DNA from: Medicago truncatula | Lineage: Eukaryota; Streptophyta; Magnoliopsida; Fabales; Fabaceae | Assembly (NCBI RefSeq): GCF_003473485.1 | Contig: NC_053043.1 | Location: 7,264,001 to 7,328,000 of the forward strand | Length of the DNA stretch: 64,000 nucleotides | Direction of reading: 5' to 3' | Shown: positions 10,740 through 63,596 of the stretch, piece after piece | Layout of the letters: each line of letters begins with the position of its first letter | Numbering within the stretch: the stretch's first letter is position 1 | Notes under the pieces: model-generated | The model's input: the letters and a program-made list of their open reading frames with translations, nothing else | Told to the model about the DNA's origin: nothing | The model's database searches: none | Made by a program: the position numbers and the translations under genes

Positions 10740-10754
10740 AAAGTTCTGGGTTCC

Positions 10755-10837
10755 GTCCTCGTGAGCTTAGCTCAGTTGGTTTGAACAATGCATAATATAT
10801 GCAAAGTCTGGAGTTCGAACCCGACCACCACCAAAAA
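10755..10837 (+). mobile_element. Short tRNA-derived retroposon, copy 1
   Basis: About 75 bp of tRNA-like sequence (A box TAGCTCAGTTGG, central ATGCATAATATATGCA, B box GAGTTCGAACCC) followed by an A run. It is flanked by AAAGTTCTGGGTTCC (10740-10754) and AAAGTTTTGGGCTCC (10838-10852), a 15-bp target duplication with two mismatches, so it is an older insertion. The ends do not pair as an acceptor stem, so it is not a functional tRNA gene. Confidence 0.8.
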
Positions 10838-10852
10838 AAAGTTTTGGGCTCC

Positions 10853-15040: not shown

Positions 15041-15372
15041 ACTCATAATAGAAGTTTATGTTTGATACTAAGCAAACAAATTATATAGCATTCTATTAGC
15101 TGTCCAGCAACCATTCTCAAATTTGACTAACATAAATTTGACTAACTCATAATAAAATTTGTCTAACATAAATAAAAGCATTTTAAAGCAATTATCTAAT
15201 CCTTCTTAAACATAATTAGTGTGCAAAAAATTATCAAAACCTGAGCTATTATTTTACTAGATATCATCAAGATAAAGCACAAAATAGTATTATGATCTAG
15301 AAAATACTCAAAGATGACTACTTAATATCATGCTGAAAATTAAACTTCTTATTTAAACCTTACATGACATTT

Positions 15373-15458
15373 GTCCTCGTGAGCTTAGCTCAGTTGGTAG
15401 AGACAATGCATAATATATGCAAGGTCCGAGGTTTAAACCCCGGCCAACAAAAAAAAAA
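15373..15458 (+). mobile_element. Short tRNA-derived retroposon, copy 2
   Basis: Same family as 10755-10837: starts GTCCTCGTGAGCTTAGCTCA, has the ATGCATAATATATGCA centre and B box GGTTTAAACCCC, then a long A run. The flanks AAACCTTACATGACATTT (15355-15372) and ACCTTACATGACATTT (15461-15476, continuing out of the A run) form an exact duplication of at least 16 bp. It lies inside the probable leader intron of the canonical GS2 gene. Confidence 0.85.
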
Positions 15459-16212
15459 AAACCTTACATGACATTTTAATCGGTGTAAGGAGTTAGTTAT
15501 GTTAGTTACAATCAGTTAGAGTTAGTTGAATTAGTTATATGTCAACCAACTCTCTCTTTTTCTGTGTATCTCAGTCAATACAAAAATGAATCATTTTCTT
15601 CAGAATCACTCTAATAATCAGATTCTTCACCACACTCAATAAGATGCACATTCTATAATTATATCAGATCAGACACAAAAAATCAACAAAAAAATAAATC
15701 ATCACTCAAGAAAATGTGCAAGGATACTTTGATAGTCAAATAAAATATACTTGTCTAACAAAGAATATTTCTTTTTGGAATATGTATATGCATAAACAGA
15801 GTCATTAATCAGATCCATGAAATATAGTAACCCAAATTTTCATTGCTACTAAAAATCAATTTACTTTCCTATATTTTTTCTTTTTGTGTGATCACTACAA
15901 AAACTAAAATGATGAAAAAGTTAGTTCTACTTTGGAATATGCAGATAAATGAAGACACATTAATAAAGAATCATATATTTTGACCAAAAATAACCACTAC
16001 ACTTTATTTTTAATTTAAAAAAAAAAAAAAAACATAAGAATCATTATTTGACAAAAATAAATAAATGTTGAGATTTACTGAAAACTGATAATATCATCAA
16101 AAAGCTTCTCATTTATTAGTTACACAAGAAAGATGCACAAAGTTACAAAGCAATAAATAAACTCTTTACCATAAGAATGAAAATGGGATTCAGAGATACT
16201 AAAGAAACTCAC

Positions 16213-31831: not shown

Positions 31832-32054
31832 TATAGAGAATGGACTTAAATTGATAATTCATTGATTAATGTGGTAAACAATTACACGAATATATACAGC
31901 AAAGAATTGAGAAACTGAATGCTAATAATAAGGAGTGGAACTACCAACCTATTCCACTAACGTTACTGGCAGGAAAGTAGGAAACTAATTAATGACCTAT
32001 TCCACTAATGTGACTTGGCAGGAAAGTAGGAAACTAATTACTAACTACTTATTA
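31832..32054 (-). repeat. 3' LTR of the copia element
   Basis: 223 bp, no difference seen from the partner LTR at 36253-36475. It is the downstream LTR because the element is on the minus strand. Confidence 0.95.
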
Positions 32055-35000
32055 CCCCCCAGCAAGCTGATGATTCTGAAGAACTCGAAGCTTGGAACGA
32101 AGAAAAGAAACTCTATCTTTGGAAAGTGGTTTGGTGAATATATCGGCTAGCTGATCAACGGATGATACGTGACCAATTTTCAGAGTACCGGAATCAACCT
32201 GGTCACGAATGAAGTGAAAATCTAGCGCAATATGCTTGGACCGTGTGCTGATAACTGGGTTCTTGGTCAAGAAAATTGCACCAACATTGTCGCAGAGAAG
32301 CAACGGAGGACCAGTAATAGGCACATGAAGCTCAGAAGCAAGAAGATTGAGCCAAAGCAGTTCGGCGGCGGTGTATGCCAGGGATCGATATTCCGCCTCA
32401 GTGCTTGAGCGAGCAACAACTTTCTGTTTGCGGGAAGTCCAGCTGATGAGATTAGATCCATGGAAGATTGCATATCCAAACTGAGAGCGGCTGTCGTCGG
32501 AATCCGAGATCCAACCGGCGTCGGAATATGCTAAAAAAGAAGTTGCTTGAGTTGGACTGAAGTGGAGAGAGTGTGACAGAGTTCCAGCAAGATAGCGAAG
32601 TATTCTTTTGACAGCACGCCAATGATCAAGTGTCGGTGAGTGCATAAATTGACAAACGCGATTCACCGCATACGTAATATCAGGTCGGGTGATTGTGGCG
32701 TACTGGAGAGAACCGACTGTGCGTCTGTATAAGGCTGGATCATCGAATGGTTCACCCGCTTTGACTAGACGATGATGTGGGTCAGCAGGTGTTGTTATAG
32801 GAGCAGCAGCAGACATGTTGGTGGACTCCAGAATATCTCTAACATAACCTTCTTGAGTGAGTTGTACCCCAGAACTGGTGCGTGTGATTTGAAGACCGAG
32901 GAAATAATGCAATTCTCCCTGATCCTTTAAAGCAAACACCTTGTTAAGGTTAATGATGAAGTTATCAATCAAACTTGAATCCGTGCCGGTAATGATCAGA
33001 TCGTCTACATATACAAGGATGTAGATGGTAGCAGCAGCAGAATGATGAACAAATAGGGACGTGTCGGATTGACAAGCCCGAAAGCCCTGCGTGATAAGAT
33101 AATGCTTAAGCTTGGTAAACCAAGCTCTGGGTGCTTGTTTGAGCCCGTAAAGAGCCTTCCGCAATTGACAGACATGATTAGGATGATGAGAATCCTCAAA
33201 ACCCTTTGGTTGACGCATATAGACAACCTCAGAGAGCTCACCATTCAAGAATGCATTGTTGATGTCCAATTGCCGAAGACACCATTGGTTGGATAAGGCA
33301 ATGGACAAGACAAGTCGAATAGTTGTTGGCTTAACCACTGGGCTGAACGTCTCAAAGAAGTCTTTACCTGCTTGCTGACTAAAACCTTGTGCCACCAAAC
33401 GAGCCTTGTGACGCTCGATACTCCCGTCGGATTTGCGCTTTGTCCTGTAAATCCACTTACAACCCACAACATTAACATTAGTAGGACAAGGAACAAGAGA
33501 CCAAGTACCATTTTTCACAAGGGCATTATATTCTACAGTCATGGCATCTTGCCAATGTTTATGTTTGAGGGCTTGTTTGTATGTACGAGGATCAGGTTCA
33601 GGTTTAAGAGTGGCAGCTAGGATTTTTGGTTTGAGTTTGCCGGTTTGGGCGCGTGTGGTCATGGGGTGAGTGGAAGATTCGGCTGGTCTGTAGTGTGAAG
33701 GAACAAATGGGTGATGTTGTTGTGGGGCCGGCGGAGAAGGGAAATGAGGTGATGAATGAGAAGTGGGATGAATTGTGAGTGAGGGCTGAATGGTAGGCTG
33801 AATTGTAGGTGCAGGTTGGAATGTGGCCGAAGGTGTGTACAGCTCAGCAGCTTGCTCTAACAAATTAGAATCTAATTCTGGAGAAGTAGGAGTAGATAAG
33901 ATAGGCGCCGAATTATGTGAAGAAATAGAATATGGGAATATACTCTCATTAAAAACAACATGCCTTGCAATATATATACGCTCAGTAGGTTTATGAAAAC
34001 AAAGATATCCTTTGTGAGAAGTACTGTAACCAATAAACACACATGGAAGAGAACGAAAATCAATTTTGTGGTTGTTATATGGACGAAGAAAAGGATAACA
34101 AAGACATCCAAAAGTTTTTAGAAAACCATAATTTGGATCTTTGTGATATAATTGTTGATATGGAGAATGGTAGTGTAAGGTGGGAGTAATGGTTCTATTG
34201 TGGAGATAAGTTGCAGTTTTGAAAGCATGTTCCCAAAATTCGTGAGGTAAAGATGATTGAGCCAAAAGAGTGAGGCCTTTTTCAATGATAATACGATTGC
34301 GTCGTTCAACCGCCCCGTTTTGCTCTTGCGTGTATGGACATGAAATACGGTGAGAAATACCGTGTTGTTTTAAAAAAATAGAGACATTTCGAAATTCACC
34401 CCCCCAATCGGATTGAAGATGTTTGATTTTTGCATTAAATTGTGTTTCAATCATAGTACGAAATTGCACAAAAGTAGTGAAAACCTGTGATTTGTGCGAT
34501 AGAAAATAAATCCACACATATTTGGTGCAATCATCAATAAACAAAACGAAATACCGATTTCCATTGATTGAAAATTTGGGAGATGGACCCCATACATCAG
34601 AGTAAATCAGTTCAAAAGGAGTAGACGACGCAATATGCGATGATGCTAAAGGAAATCGATGACTCTTTCCAAGTTGACAAGAGTCACAGACATTGGGAAA
34701 TTTATTTGAAGAAATTGGTAAATTAAAAGAGGAAATAAGACGACGCAAGAGAGGTTCATGAGGATGAGCAAGCCGCTGGTGCCAGCCGTGGACAGACGTA
34801 CGGACGCCGGTGAGAGCCAGGGTTGGTCGAGCTTTATTTTGGATGGAGTTAATGCAGTAGAGGCCGTTGTTAATGCCCCCTCGAAGAATGGTTTGACCCT
34901 GAAAAGTTTTGACAAGGCAATGAGAAGGCCAAAATTCTATATAAACCTGATTATCCTTTGTAAATTTGGATACACTGAGAAGGCTTTTTGTGAGTTTAGG

Positions 35001-36233
35001 AACAATGAGAACATTAGGCAAGCGCAAATTATGTAAAGTAGAATTGCCAATGTGAGAAATAGATAAAAGGTTACCATTGCCCACTTGCAGCTTGTCATTG
35101 CCTTTGTAGTCATCAGAGATGGTCAGCTTCTGAAAATCTGGAGAAGCATGATCAGTGGCACCGGTGTCGAAATACCAAGAAGGATCGATGGCACTTGAAG
35201 ACGGAGCCTGAGAAGCATAATGAGCCTGCTTTGATGTATTGCGTGGGTTGGGCTTGCGTGAGGGAAAATCAATCTGATTATCACGTTGCCAACAATCCAC
35301 AGCCTCGTGACCTGGACGCCCACATAATTGGCACTGGGGACGGCGACGGCGGAACTCACCACCGTTTGCTGTACGAGTGTCACCTCTGGAGTCGTTCCGG
35401 GAATCACCGCGAGAATAGGCGCCACCGTAATTGTTGGTATTGTATGAACGGCCAGATTGCCGACTGGCGACGTGGGCAGAAGAGATTGGTGCTGGAGATG
35501 AAGGAGCCAGGGGAGCGATTGTGGATTGGCGAGCCAGTTCTTGAGCGAGTCGTGCTTCCTCCTGAAGCAATTTGCCCACGAGATCGTCAACAGAAGCATC
35601 ATCACAGTGGATCATGAATGCAGTGGCGAAGGCGCCGTAAGAGCTATCTAGCCCAGAGAGGATGTGACCGATTAGGTCCTCATCGGAAACAGGGTGCAGG
35701 TTTGCAGCGAGGGAGTCAGCAATTGAGCGTTTTCGCTCGATGTACTCCATGATAGAGAGAGACCCCTTAGGTAGGGATTGTAATTGCAATTTCAGGGACA
35801 TCCGCTGAGCACGAGTCTGTGCCTGGAAAGTTTTGTCGAGTGCTGTCCAGGCCATGTGGGAGCTGGTGCTACGAGCAACGATGGCGAGTGCCCTCTCGGA
35901 GAGAGTTGATTTTAACCACAGCAGAACCAACTTATCGCGACGCTTCCAGGCGAGATAGTCAGGGTTGGGTTCTTGGGTGATATTTCCATCGTCAGAAGCA
36001 ATGGAGCGAGTCTGTGGCGGTGGATTTGGTGCCAGCAAATGAGGCTCAAGATCAAAGGTTTCGAGAGCAGAGATGACAGTGGTGCTCCAAAGACAGTGAT
36101 TTTCATTGTCAAGAGTGATTTTGATTGGAGGAAGTTGAAAATTGATCTGGGAAGATGATGAATTGGCTAGGGCCAGTAGGTTGGGGATATTGCCAGCCAT
36201 GGGAGTGAATGTGGTTGAAAAAAAAAAATTCAA
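32055..36233 (-). CDS. Copia gag-pol polyprotein
   Basis: A single frame of up to 1393 aa on the minus strand. In order: a UBN2-type gag, a CCHC zinc knuckle (CQLCGRPGHEAVDC), an aspartic protease (DTGATDH), integrase (HGWHQRLAHP, then the D,D-35-E core), copia reverse transcriptase (YVDD box) and RNase H (YSDAGW, STEAEY). The start may be the internal M-A-G-N Met rather than the first Met. Fused gag-pol in one frame is usual for plant copia elements. It is an element gene, not a host gene. Confidence 0.93.
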
Positions 36234-36252: not shown

Positions 36253-36475
36253 TATAGAGAATGGACTTAAATTGATAATTCATTGATTAATGTGGTAAAC
36301 AATTACACGAATATATACAGCAAAGAATTGAGAAACTGAATGCTAATAATAAGGAGTGGAACTACCAACCTATTCCACTAACGTTACTGGCAGGAAAGTA
36401 GGAAACTAATTAATGACCTATTCCACTAATGTGACTTGGCAGGAAAGTAGGAAACTAATTACTAACTACTTATTA
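36253..36475 (-). repeat. 5' LTR of the copia element
   Basis: 223 bp, upstream LTR in element orientation. It is followed on the minus strand directly by the primer-binding site at 36241-36252 and is flanked outside by GCATT at 36476-36480. Confidence 0.95.
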
Positions 36476-39020: not shown

Positions 39021-40352
39021 ATGACTACCAAAGAAAATATTTCTTCTAAATCTGAAAATTTAGAAAAAGCAAAGTGGAACAACCCATTTTATACCAAAGT
39101 ATTACTTGACATTTGTATGGATGAGATTCGAAAATGTGGGAAACCGAGAATTGCTTTTAAGAATAAGAAATGGGAAGAAATACGTGACGAATTCAATAAA
39201 AATGCTAGTAAAAACTATACTAAAAAACAATTGAAAAATAGAATGGATAATTTGAGAACATATTGGACTACCTGGAAACAATTAATTGGTAAAGAAATAG
39301 GGCTAGGATGGAATACCGAAATAGGAAATATTGATGCTGATCCTGCTTGGTGGGACGCAAAAATTAAGGTGAGTATTATGAATATTTTAATTTTATTTGG
39401 TGAACATTGAGTAAAAGAAGGGTTTGTCTAAATCTCCTTTATTGGCAATGCAGGAGAATGTGAAATATGCAAAATTTCAAAGTCAAGGATTGAAATTTCG
39501 TGAGGAATTGAAATTTATATTTGGAGAGATTGTGACAACAAGTCAATGCCAACGGACACCAGCTTTAGGGATGCCACATGAATCTAGTGGAAAAAATGCT
39601 ATTGATGATGTGTCACTAGAACTTATTGAATCAGAAGAGGATGATATTATCCCTATGGAAAGTAACAAATCAAGAAAGAAAAAAAAGGTTTCACCAGATA
39701 TGGGTGAGAAAGTTACAAAGGGTAAGACCAAGGTTGGGACTGCAACAACTATGAGAAACACATTTGAGCGATTAGTTCAAGCATCAGAATGTCATAATGA
39801 AATTGAGAAGGCCGAAATTGCAGCAACATCTAATGTTCTTGGACAATATTCAATTCCTGATTGTGTTACAATATTGAAAAGTGCGAAGGAGGAAGGACAT
39901 TTGAATAATCGACAATTTAGTTATGCTTTGGTGATGTGTCACTAGAACTTATTGAATCAGAAGAGGATGATATTATCCCTATGGAAAGTAACAAATCAAG
40001 AAAGAAAAGAAAGGTTTCACCAGATATGGGTGAGAAAGTTACAAAGGGTAAGACCAAGGTTGGGACTGCAACAACTATGAGAAACACATTTGAGCGATTA
40101 GTTCAAGCATCAGAATGTCATAATGAAATTGAGAAGGCCGAAATTGCAGCAACATCTAATGTTCTTGGACAATATTCAATTCCTGATTGTGTTACAATAT
40201 TGAAAAGTGCGAAGGAGGAAGGACATTTGAATAATCGACAATTTAGTTATACTTTGGTGATGCTTAAAGATGAAGATAATAGAATCTTACTGATGTCCTT
40301 AAAAGATTCTATGGATGCTTTGGTAGACTGGATTCTATACAAGTATCAATGA
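39021..40352 (+). pseudogene. Harbinger ORF1, Myb/SANT-like DNA-binding protein, disrupted
   Basis: In PIF/Harbinger elements this protein helps bring transposase to the element ends and the nucleus. Exon 1 (39021-39368) encodes a Myb_DNA-bind_3-like domain (W-N-N-P-F-Y-T-K-V-L-L-D at residues 15-26, then NRMDNLRTYWTTWKQLIG and D-P-A-W-W-D near the end). An 85-bp intron (39369-39453, GT-AG) leads in frame into exon 2. Residues rich in Lys/Arg (KSRKKKKVS) look like a nuclear signal. A 326-bp direct tandem duplication (39606-39931 and 39932-40257) is out of phase, so the frame stops at 39945; the second unit carries the proper C-terminus (MDALVDWILYKYQ) to 40352. The ATG at 39021 follows a TGCAG, so an upstream noncoding exon is possible. 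Confidence 0.8.
39606..40257 (+). repeat. 326-bp direct tandem duplication
   Basis: Two adjacent 326-bp units (39606-39931, 39932-40257) with about two differences (an A/G in the Lys-rich stretch and G/A in TTATGCTTTGG against TTATACTTTGG). The short shared sequence TGATG lies at both borders and after the second unit, which fits slippage or microhomology-mediated duplication. 326 is not divisible by three. Confidence 0.92.
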
Positions 40353-41908: not shown

Positions 41909-42216
41909 GTTTGTAATGATTTATGTCTTTTTTTAAATAAAAAAAAGATGATTATTGTTTTTAATTTTCCAAACTACTTTGATATTATTTATGTTATTAT
42001 TTGAGCCTCCTTAAATTATTTCTCCTATTCAAATATTTAACAAGTCGTTTATATGATGATACAAATTTGTATTCATGTTACACAAAATAAACGTCATTGA
42101 GTAAATATAGTATTGGTAAAAATATATCTTTTATATTTTAAACATTTTTTCTCTTCAAAAAATATTTTAGACATTTTTTTATTTATTATGTTAATTCATA
42201 ATGAATTCAAAGTTTT

Positions 42217-42287
42217 TTTATTTATAGACAATGCATAAATATATGCAAGGTCCCGGGTTCGAACCCCAGACACCACCAAAAAATAAT
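42217..42287 (+). mobile_element. Short tRNA-derived retroposon, 5'-truncated copy
   Basis: Retains GACAATGCATAAATATATGC, AAGGTCCCGGGTTCGAACCCC and ACACCACC plus an A run, matching the two copies at 10755 and 15373, but lacks the A-box half. The flanks AATGAATTCAAAGTTTT and AATAAATTCAAAGTTTT form a 17-bp target duplication with one mismatch. Confidence 0.72.
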
Positions 42288-42420
42288 AAATTCAAAGTTT
42301 TGTACAATATTTTGCCAAACAGCTTTTAACTCAAAAATAACTTTAGAACTAACAAAAAATAAAGAAACCAAACAGCTTTAGCTTTTTTCTTAAAGAGCTG
42401 ACCAGACGGTACTTGTCTCA

Positions 42421-57998: not shown

Positions 57999-63596
<5,598 letters not shown>

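Follow-up and report, generated by a model that had tools for sequence, protein, structure and literature searches.

The stretch of Medicago truncatula DNA analysed here (the window: 64 kb, C2:7264001-7328000 of the 430-Mb genome) contains three copies of a minimal tRNA-derived SINE family, whose members consist of a 78–79 bp head with box A and box B promoter motifs that runs straight into an A tail. We consider it very probable (about 0.9) that this is such a family, that it was moved by L1-type machinery and that it has a common ancestor with a longer SINE of the same genome. The three window copies and their target duplications (TSDs) are as follows:

10740..10754, + strand: TSD on the 5' side of copy 1 (13 of 15 positions match 10838-10852)
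10755..10837, + strand: copy 1, full-length body-less SINE with the start of its A tail (A run at 10833-10840)
10768..10779, + strand: box A-like promoter motif of copy 1, TAGCTCAGTTGG, called from the sequence
10812..10821, + strand: box B-like motif of copy 1, AGTTCGAACC, called from the sequence
10838..10852, + strand: TSD on the 3' side of copy 1, its first As overlapping the A tail
15355..15372, + strand: TSD on the 5' side of copy 2 (18 of 18 positions match 15459-15476)
15373..15458, + strand: copy 2, full-length body-less SINE with A tail, from its sequence and the flank match
15459..15476, + strand: TSD on the 3' side of copy 2, its first As overlapping the A tail
42200..42216, + strand: TSD on the 5' side of copy 3 (16 of 17 positions match 42285-42301)
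42217..42284, + strand: copy 3, 5'-truncated body-less SINE with A-rich tail, box A region missing
42285..42301, + strand: TSD on the 3' side of copy 3, from the flank match

The consensus motifs by which box A and box B were called are ones that we take to be standard. The duplications of 15–18 bp given for these copies in the preliminary description were found again (15, 18 and 17 bp for copies 1, 2 and 3, respectively), and all three copies are family members, but copy 3, which it had not set apart, is 5'-truncated: its match to the consensus starts at about position 27, some 26 bp at its start, with box A among them, are absent and 42217-42223 does not match the consensus, which is the pattern expected when reverse transcription stops early. 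In the window ARAGORN called no tRNA, and Rfam at gathering thresholds found no tRNA and no other family.

Several other features lie in the same window. An F-box protein reading frame (PF00646; 9471-10394, minus strand) lies left of copy 1 at a distance of ~350 bp, and a partial protein kinase (PF00069) is at 62259-62762 on the minus strand. Identical 223-bp direct repeats (31832-32054 and 36253-36475, 4421 bp apart) flank a 1393-codon open reading frame at 32052-36233 on the minus strand, and together these have the appearance of an LTR retrotransposon of very recent origin whose terminal repeats are short. A tandem duplication with a 326-bp unit and 98% matches spans 39596-40262 and overlaps an open reading frame at 39424-39945.

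Copies were counted in the whole genome with three patterns. A 43-mer core taken from window copy 2 gave 399 matches with ≤3 mismatches; the 5' 27-mer gave 1838 with ≤2 mismatches, a count that must also take in the long sister elements described below, whose starts differ by one or two bases; and a 26-mer of the 3' end plus A tail, which only the short form can match, gave 700 with ≤2 mismatches. The reversed patterns gave 0 in each case, so these matches are not due to chance; they lie on the long, chromosome-like contigs C1–C8. The tRNA-like retroposon family of the preliminary description is supported. If 700–1800 copies were spread evenly, 0.10–0.27 would be expected in 64 kb, where three are present in a region that was chosen for having them.

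A sample of 118 copies was assembled from eight initial loci, 30 and then 60 of the 399 core matches, and 20 copies selected for a perfect match to the 5' 27-mer. These 20 remain from the top 30 rows of the 27-mer list after the removal of ten, of which seven were already sampled (window copy 2 and one initial locus among them) and three were likewise sampled or were repeats of a cluster on C1. Three members (L017, L054 and L162) were dropped as duplicates by their flanks, leaving 115 copies, in which window copies 1 and 2 are L001 and L009; the 90 core-chosen copies are biased to low core divergence and the 20 others to an intact 5' end.

The short copies are a real body-less SINE family. An A run begins within 50 nt past position 54 in 110 of the 115 copies, with a median length of 9 (range 3–33), as is expected of the A-rich tail of a tRNA-derived SINE. 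The A run sets in after a length of 78 bp in 44 copies and of 79 bp in 35. The element had been correctly described as a short tRNA-like head plus an A run, while its length before the run is 78 bp at the mode rather than ~75. The five exceptions are L150, a body-bearing SINE, and L013, L028, L046 and L090, which have no recognisable A run at the expected place. Among the 20 copies picked by their 5' end, 19 have no body (L161 and L162, both among the 19, duplicate one site). Box B, scored as GTTC[AG]A (the AnnoSINE paper prints another motif), is exact in 87 of the 115 copies, and 80 of these also have a run of six As; its spacing from box B is below 20 nt in 74 of the 80 and 20 nt or more in six (median 14.5), as against 56–71 nt in the 28 measurable of 30 copies of the long SINE. 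The head is thus joined directly to the tail and has multiplied in that form, with no region between them as in SINEs of the head-body-tail type, and the earlier suggestion that no tRNA-unrelated body follows the promoter holds.

The target duplications were examined by a local match score between the 5' and 3' flanks of each copy, with the 3' flanks permuted among copies as a control. A score of at least 8 was reached by 83 of the 115 copies (3.7% with permuted flanks) and a score of at least 10 by 71 (0.5%). The preliminary description had called for a genome search and a count of A tails and target duplications, and had made its case depend on most copies having such duplications; most do, and the copies were inserted independently. 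The remaining 32 copies have no clear TSD (score <8), for which their age would be an explanation. In the 71 best copies the TSD has a median length of 15 bp (range 10–20), in keeping with the ~8–20 bp of tRNA-derived SINEs, and it leads with at least three As in 34 of the 71 (4.9% for A runs in the same flanks) and with at least two in 46 (11.7%). The As at the start of the TSD overlap the A tail, and the leading-A test allows for this overlap; the T at position −1 was not used. Since the TSDs so often lead with three or more As, they carry the signature of an L1-type endonuclease and fit its cutting at T/AAA. Dimer-like arrangements occur at L079 and L094, where the first element is followed immediately by another short one that lies at, or next to, the A tail or TSD of the first.

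The tRNA connection of the head was traced through its promoter motifs. The consensus contains TAGCTCAGTTGG and GGTTCAAACC as the pol III boxes A and B of a tRNA-derived SINE. A search for tRNA genes that have the same box A and no intron gave 0 matches; a pattern with a wider gap had 14, which resemble intron-containing genes that we take to be tRNA-Tyr and have the box A region in common with the family. This gapped pattern was chosen for box A CTTAGCTCAGTTGGTAGAGC, which agrees with window copy 2 over 19 bases and with the family consensus over its first 17, and tRNA-Tyr was the sole species compared. A 20-mer scan of bacterial and archaeal genomes gave 25 records, taken as tRNA-type matches.

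The RNA is predicted to fold not as a cloverleaf but as a 5' stem enclosing GAGCU/AGCUC, a centre of UGCAUA/UAUGCA and an extended T hairpin, with z-scores of −4.2 for the G28 consensus and −5.5 for the A28 consensus (named for the base at position 28; below). The ends do not pair as an acceptor stem in this predicted fold, just as had been noted from the sequence, and the cloverleaf with acceptor stem of a tRNA gene is absent from it. Of the changes seen at predicted pairs within copies, 445 are one-sided and 63 two-sided, and pair 5-28 is formed in 65 of 110 copies and pair 54-71 in 57 of 102. Mostly one-sided changes are expected of copies that decay freely after insertion; given these counts and the poorly kept pairs, the fold rests on prediction and on one double change between families (below).

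The tRNA-like boxes and the TSDs would also be found if the copies were tRNA retropseudogenes, that is, separate insertions of processed tRNAs. We regard this as extremely improbable, as the copies have one common consensus that is not that of a tRNA (it has a 5' extension, an altered anticodon region and no acceptor stem) and no tRNA was called by ARAGORN in the window or by cmscan at three loci; in the latter search, run against Rfam at a loose threshold, the only match was one of 13 nt to tmRNA (E 0.23). A further idea, that the CCACCACC end of the element arose when CCA was added in tandem to an unstable tRNA, was dropped: GGACAC stands there both in the A28 group and in the longer sister SINE, so that inheritance explains most of this end.

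The same genome contains a longer SINE in which the ~75 bp head is followed by a body ending in TAGCCACTAGGCTACTTGACC and an A tail. Its tail motif TAGCCACTAGGCTACTTGACCAAAAAA has 2184 matches in the whole genome with ≤3 mismatches. A consensus of 127 bp, with a body of ~50 bp, was built from 25 of 30 loci (five that were cut short or had no head start were left out), and its head is identical to that of the short consensus at 66 of 74 positions, the palindromic centre included. The centre had been thought to be special to the short family, and this does not hold, since the body-bearing sister has a near-identical one. The short family's exact centre occurs in long copies as well (16 gapped matches), and of the 15 of these examined eight start with GTCC like the short family; the long copies with this exact centre look older. 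With near-identical or exact centres in long, body-bearing copies, the palindromic centre is a feature of a wider SINE clade.

In the 23 long loci with a head of the young type (the remaining seven of the 30, truncated or of the older type, were left out of this count), position 1 is always A and position 32 always T; 100 of the 115 short copies have G and C there, a double change that keeps the predicted 5' stem. Divergence is 4.6% in the long SINE, for 25 copies selected by a perfectly matching tail, as against 13.3–19.2% in the groups of the short family at matching sites. The long bodies vary in sequence, yet by inspection they are self-complementary in several copies (CCACAATTAAATTGTG, TTCACCTTAAAATGGTGAA and TTCTCCTTAAAAGAGAA). 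The end of this body in the long SINE copies (L099-L143), read on the reverse strand (AGTAGCCTAGTGGCTAGAGC), resembles a box A, and together with the self-complementary box B GGTTCGAACC it could provide promoter motifs on both strands.

The 110 short copies fall into three groups by the base at position 28, namely G (56 copies), T (38) and A (16). The family differs from the long SINE at shared diagnostic sites, and the A28 group often has the long-type base there: C5 in 8 of 16, G63 in 11 of 16 and A72 in 7 of 16. This group is also the most diverged (19.2%, versus 13.3% for each of the other two, at 35 sites outside the core) and may stand near the split between short and long forms. The short head keeps AGGTC, as do the tRNA-Tyr-like genes, which hints that it is nearer to the tRNA than the long head is; the long form may equally have been the first.

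A 74-bp head in common raises the question of whether the short copies are a family of their own or 3'-truncated by-products that the long SINE produced repeatedly by internal priming or loss of the body. A founder could still have come from an older long form whose head is near-identical, but repeated production is highly improbable, given that hundreds of short copies have their own diagnostic bases and one and the same 3' end. Moreover, the centre of the young long form is followed by a run of eight As 20–38 nt on at only three distinct places in the whole genome (four rows, one place twice), though the long tail has its 2184 matches, a count that comes from a different pattern and is no strict denominator for the three. 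The short centre is followed by such a run 16–36 nt on at no fewer than 33 distinct places among the matches listed, all on one contig; the gapped counts for this pattern, 149 on the forward and 652 on the reverse strand, are not copy numbers, since each A run matches several times and the reverse count is thereby inflated.

We therefore return to a body-less SINE family in its own right, which would have spread as follows. A few source copies would be transcribed from the internal pol III promoter formed by boxes A and B, and the RNA would probably take the form of three successive hairpins and not of a cloverleaf. Its A tail would be taken up by the reverse transcriptase of a putative L1-type LINE, which would nick the target at T/AAA and insert a cDNA copy with a TSD of ~15 bp, some insertions being 5'-truncated; of this scheme, the TSDs, the A-rich nick sites and a single truncated copy have been observed. 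The common head suggests that the short family and the longer SINE came from one ancestor, and the short form would then have multiplied without the body, which would mean that a body is not required for movement in the Medicago truncatula genome.

Two sister SINEs that differ mainly in the body bear on what plant LINEs need in their template RNA, and in this connection relaxed recognition of the A tail has been proposed for plant L1 elements in the available part of PMC3747384. The family also bears on how SINEs are detected. SINE-Finder, as described in the available part of the AnnoSINE paper (PMC8825457), requires 20–500 nt between box B and the tail, so the short family, with a spacing of ~14 nt, would be excluded by it. 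According to the same source, AnnoSINE uses SINE-Finder in its de novo branch; heads of this type might still be picked up by its homology branch. The minimum spacing in tools based on SINE-Finder is thus a possible blind spot for body-less SINEs.

The kind of element is known, since body-less SINEs have already been described: that certain SINEs have no body is an accepted variation in PMC7983390, the accessible part of which gives no plant example. The particular family may be one of the named A-tailed Medicago truncatula families MT_SINE-1, -2 and -3 (Gadzalski and Sakowicz 2011, from the available part of PMC3747384) or a Repbase entry, possibly as part of the longer SINE; the existence of these named families speaks for this, nothing speaks directly against it, and we put its chance at a little short of even. 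For either the short family or its long sister to be already catalogued, the odds are roughly even. Five diagnostic strings of the two families were absent from the text of the open-access papers searched, in which sequences are often placed in figures. Literature searches by phrase for body-less or "simple" SINEs had irrelevant papers among the results listed, and searches on plant SINE surveys listed AnnoSINE, a fungal genome paper, a fungal and a fish SINE paper and others on SINEs from various organisms, with no title on legume SINEs among those listed. In the other case, which we likewise rate slightly below an even chance, this is an undescribed body-less plant SINE family beside a body-bearing sister, and the two form a paired test in which L1-type machinery would need only a head RNA and an A tail; elements of this kind, excluded by SINE-Finder, may then be widely overlooked in plants.

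Among known systems, MT_SINE-1, -2 and -3 resemble the short family in being A-tailed and in coming from the same species, and are compared here, from a partly available source, by name and not by sequence or length. The long SINE has the head, the palindromic centre and the A tail in common with the short family, and differs from it in its ~50-bp body with a self-complementary stretch and in its lower divergence in the sample. Rodent ID elements are derived from a tRNA and have no body. As described in the available part of PMC1978531, these elements, whose master gene is BC1, are short and pol III-transcribed, have an A-rich tail and form subfamilies that differ by a few bases; they belong to another organism, and the likeness is one of analogy, with no homology claimed. 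Body-less SINEs in general, as characterised in the accessible part of PMC7983390, are like the short family in that no body separates the head from the tail.
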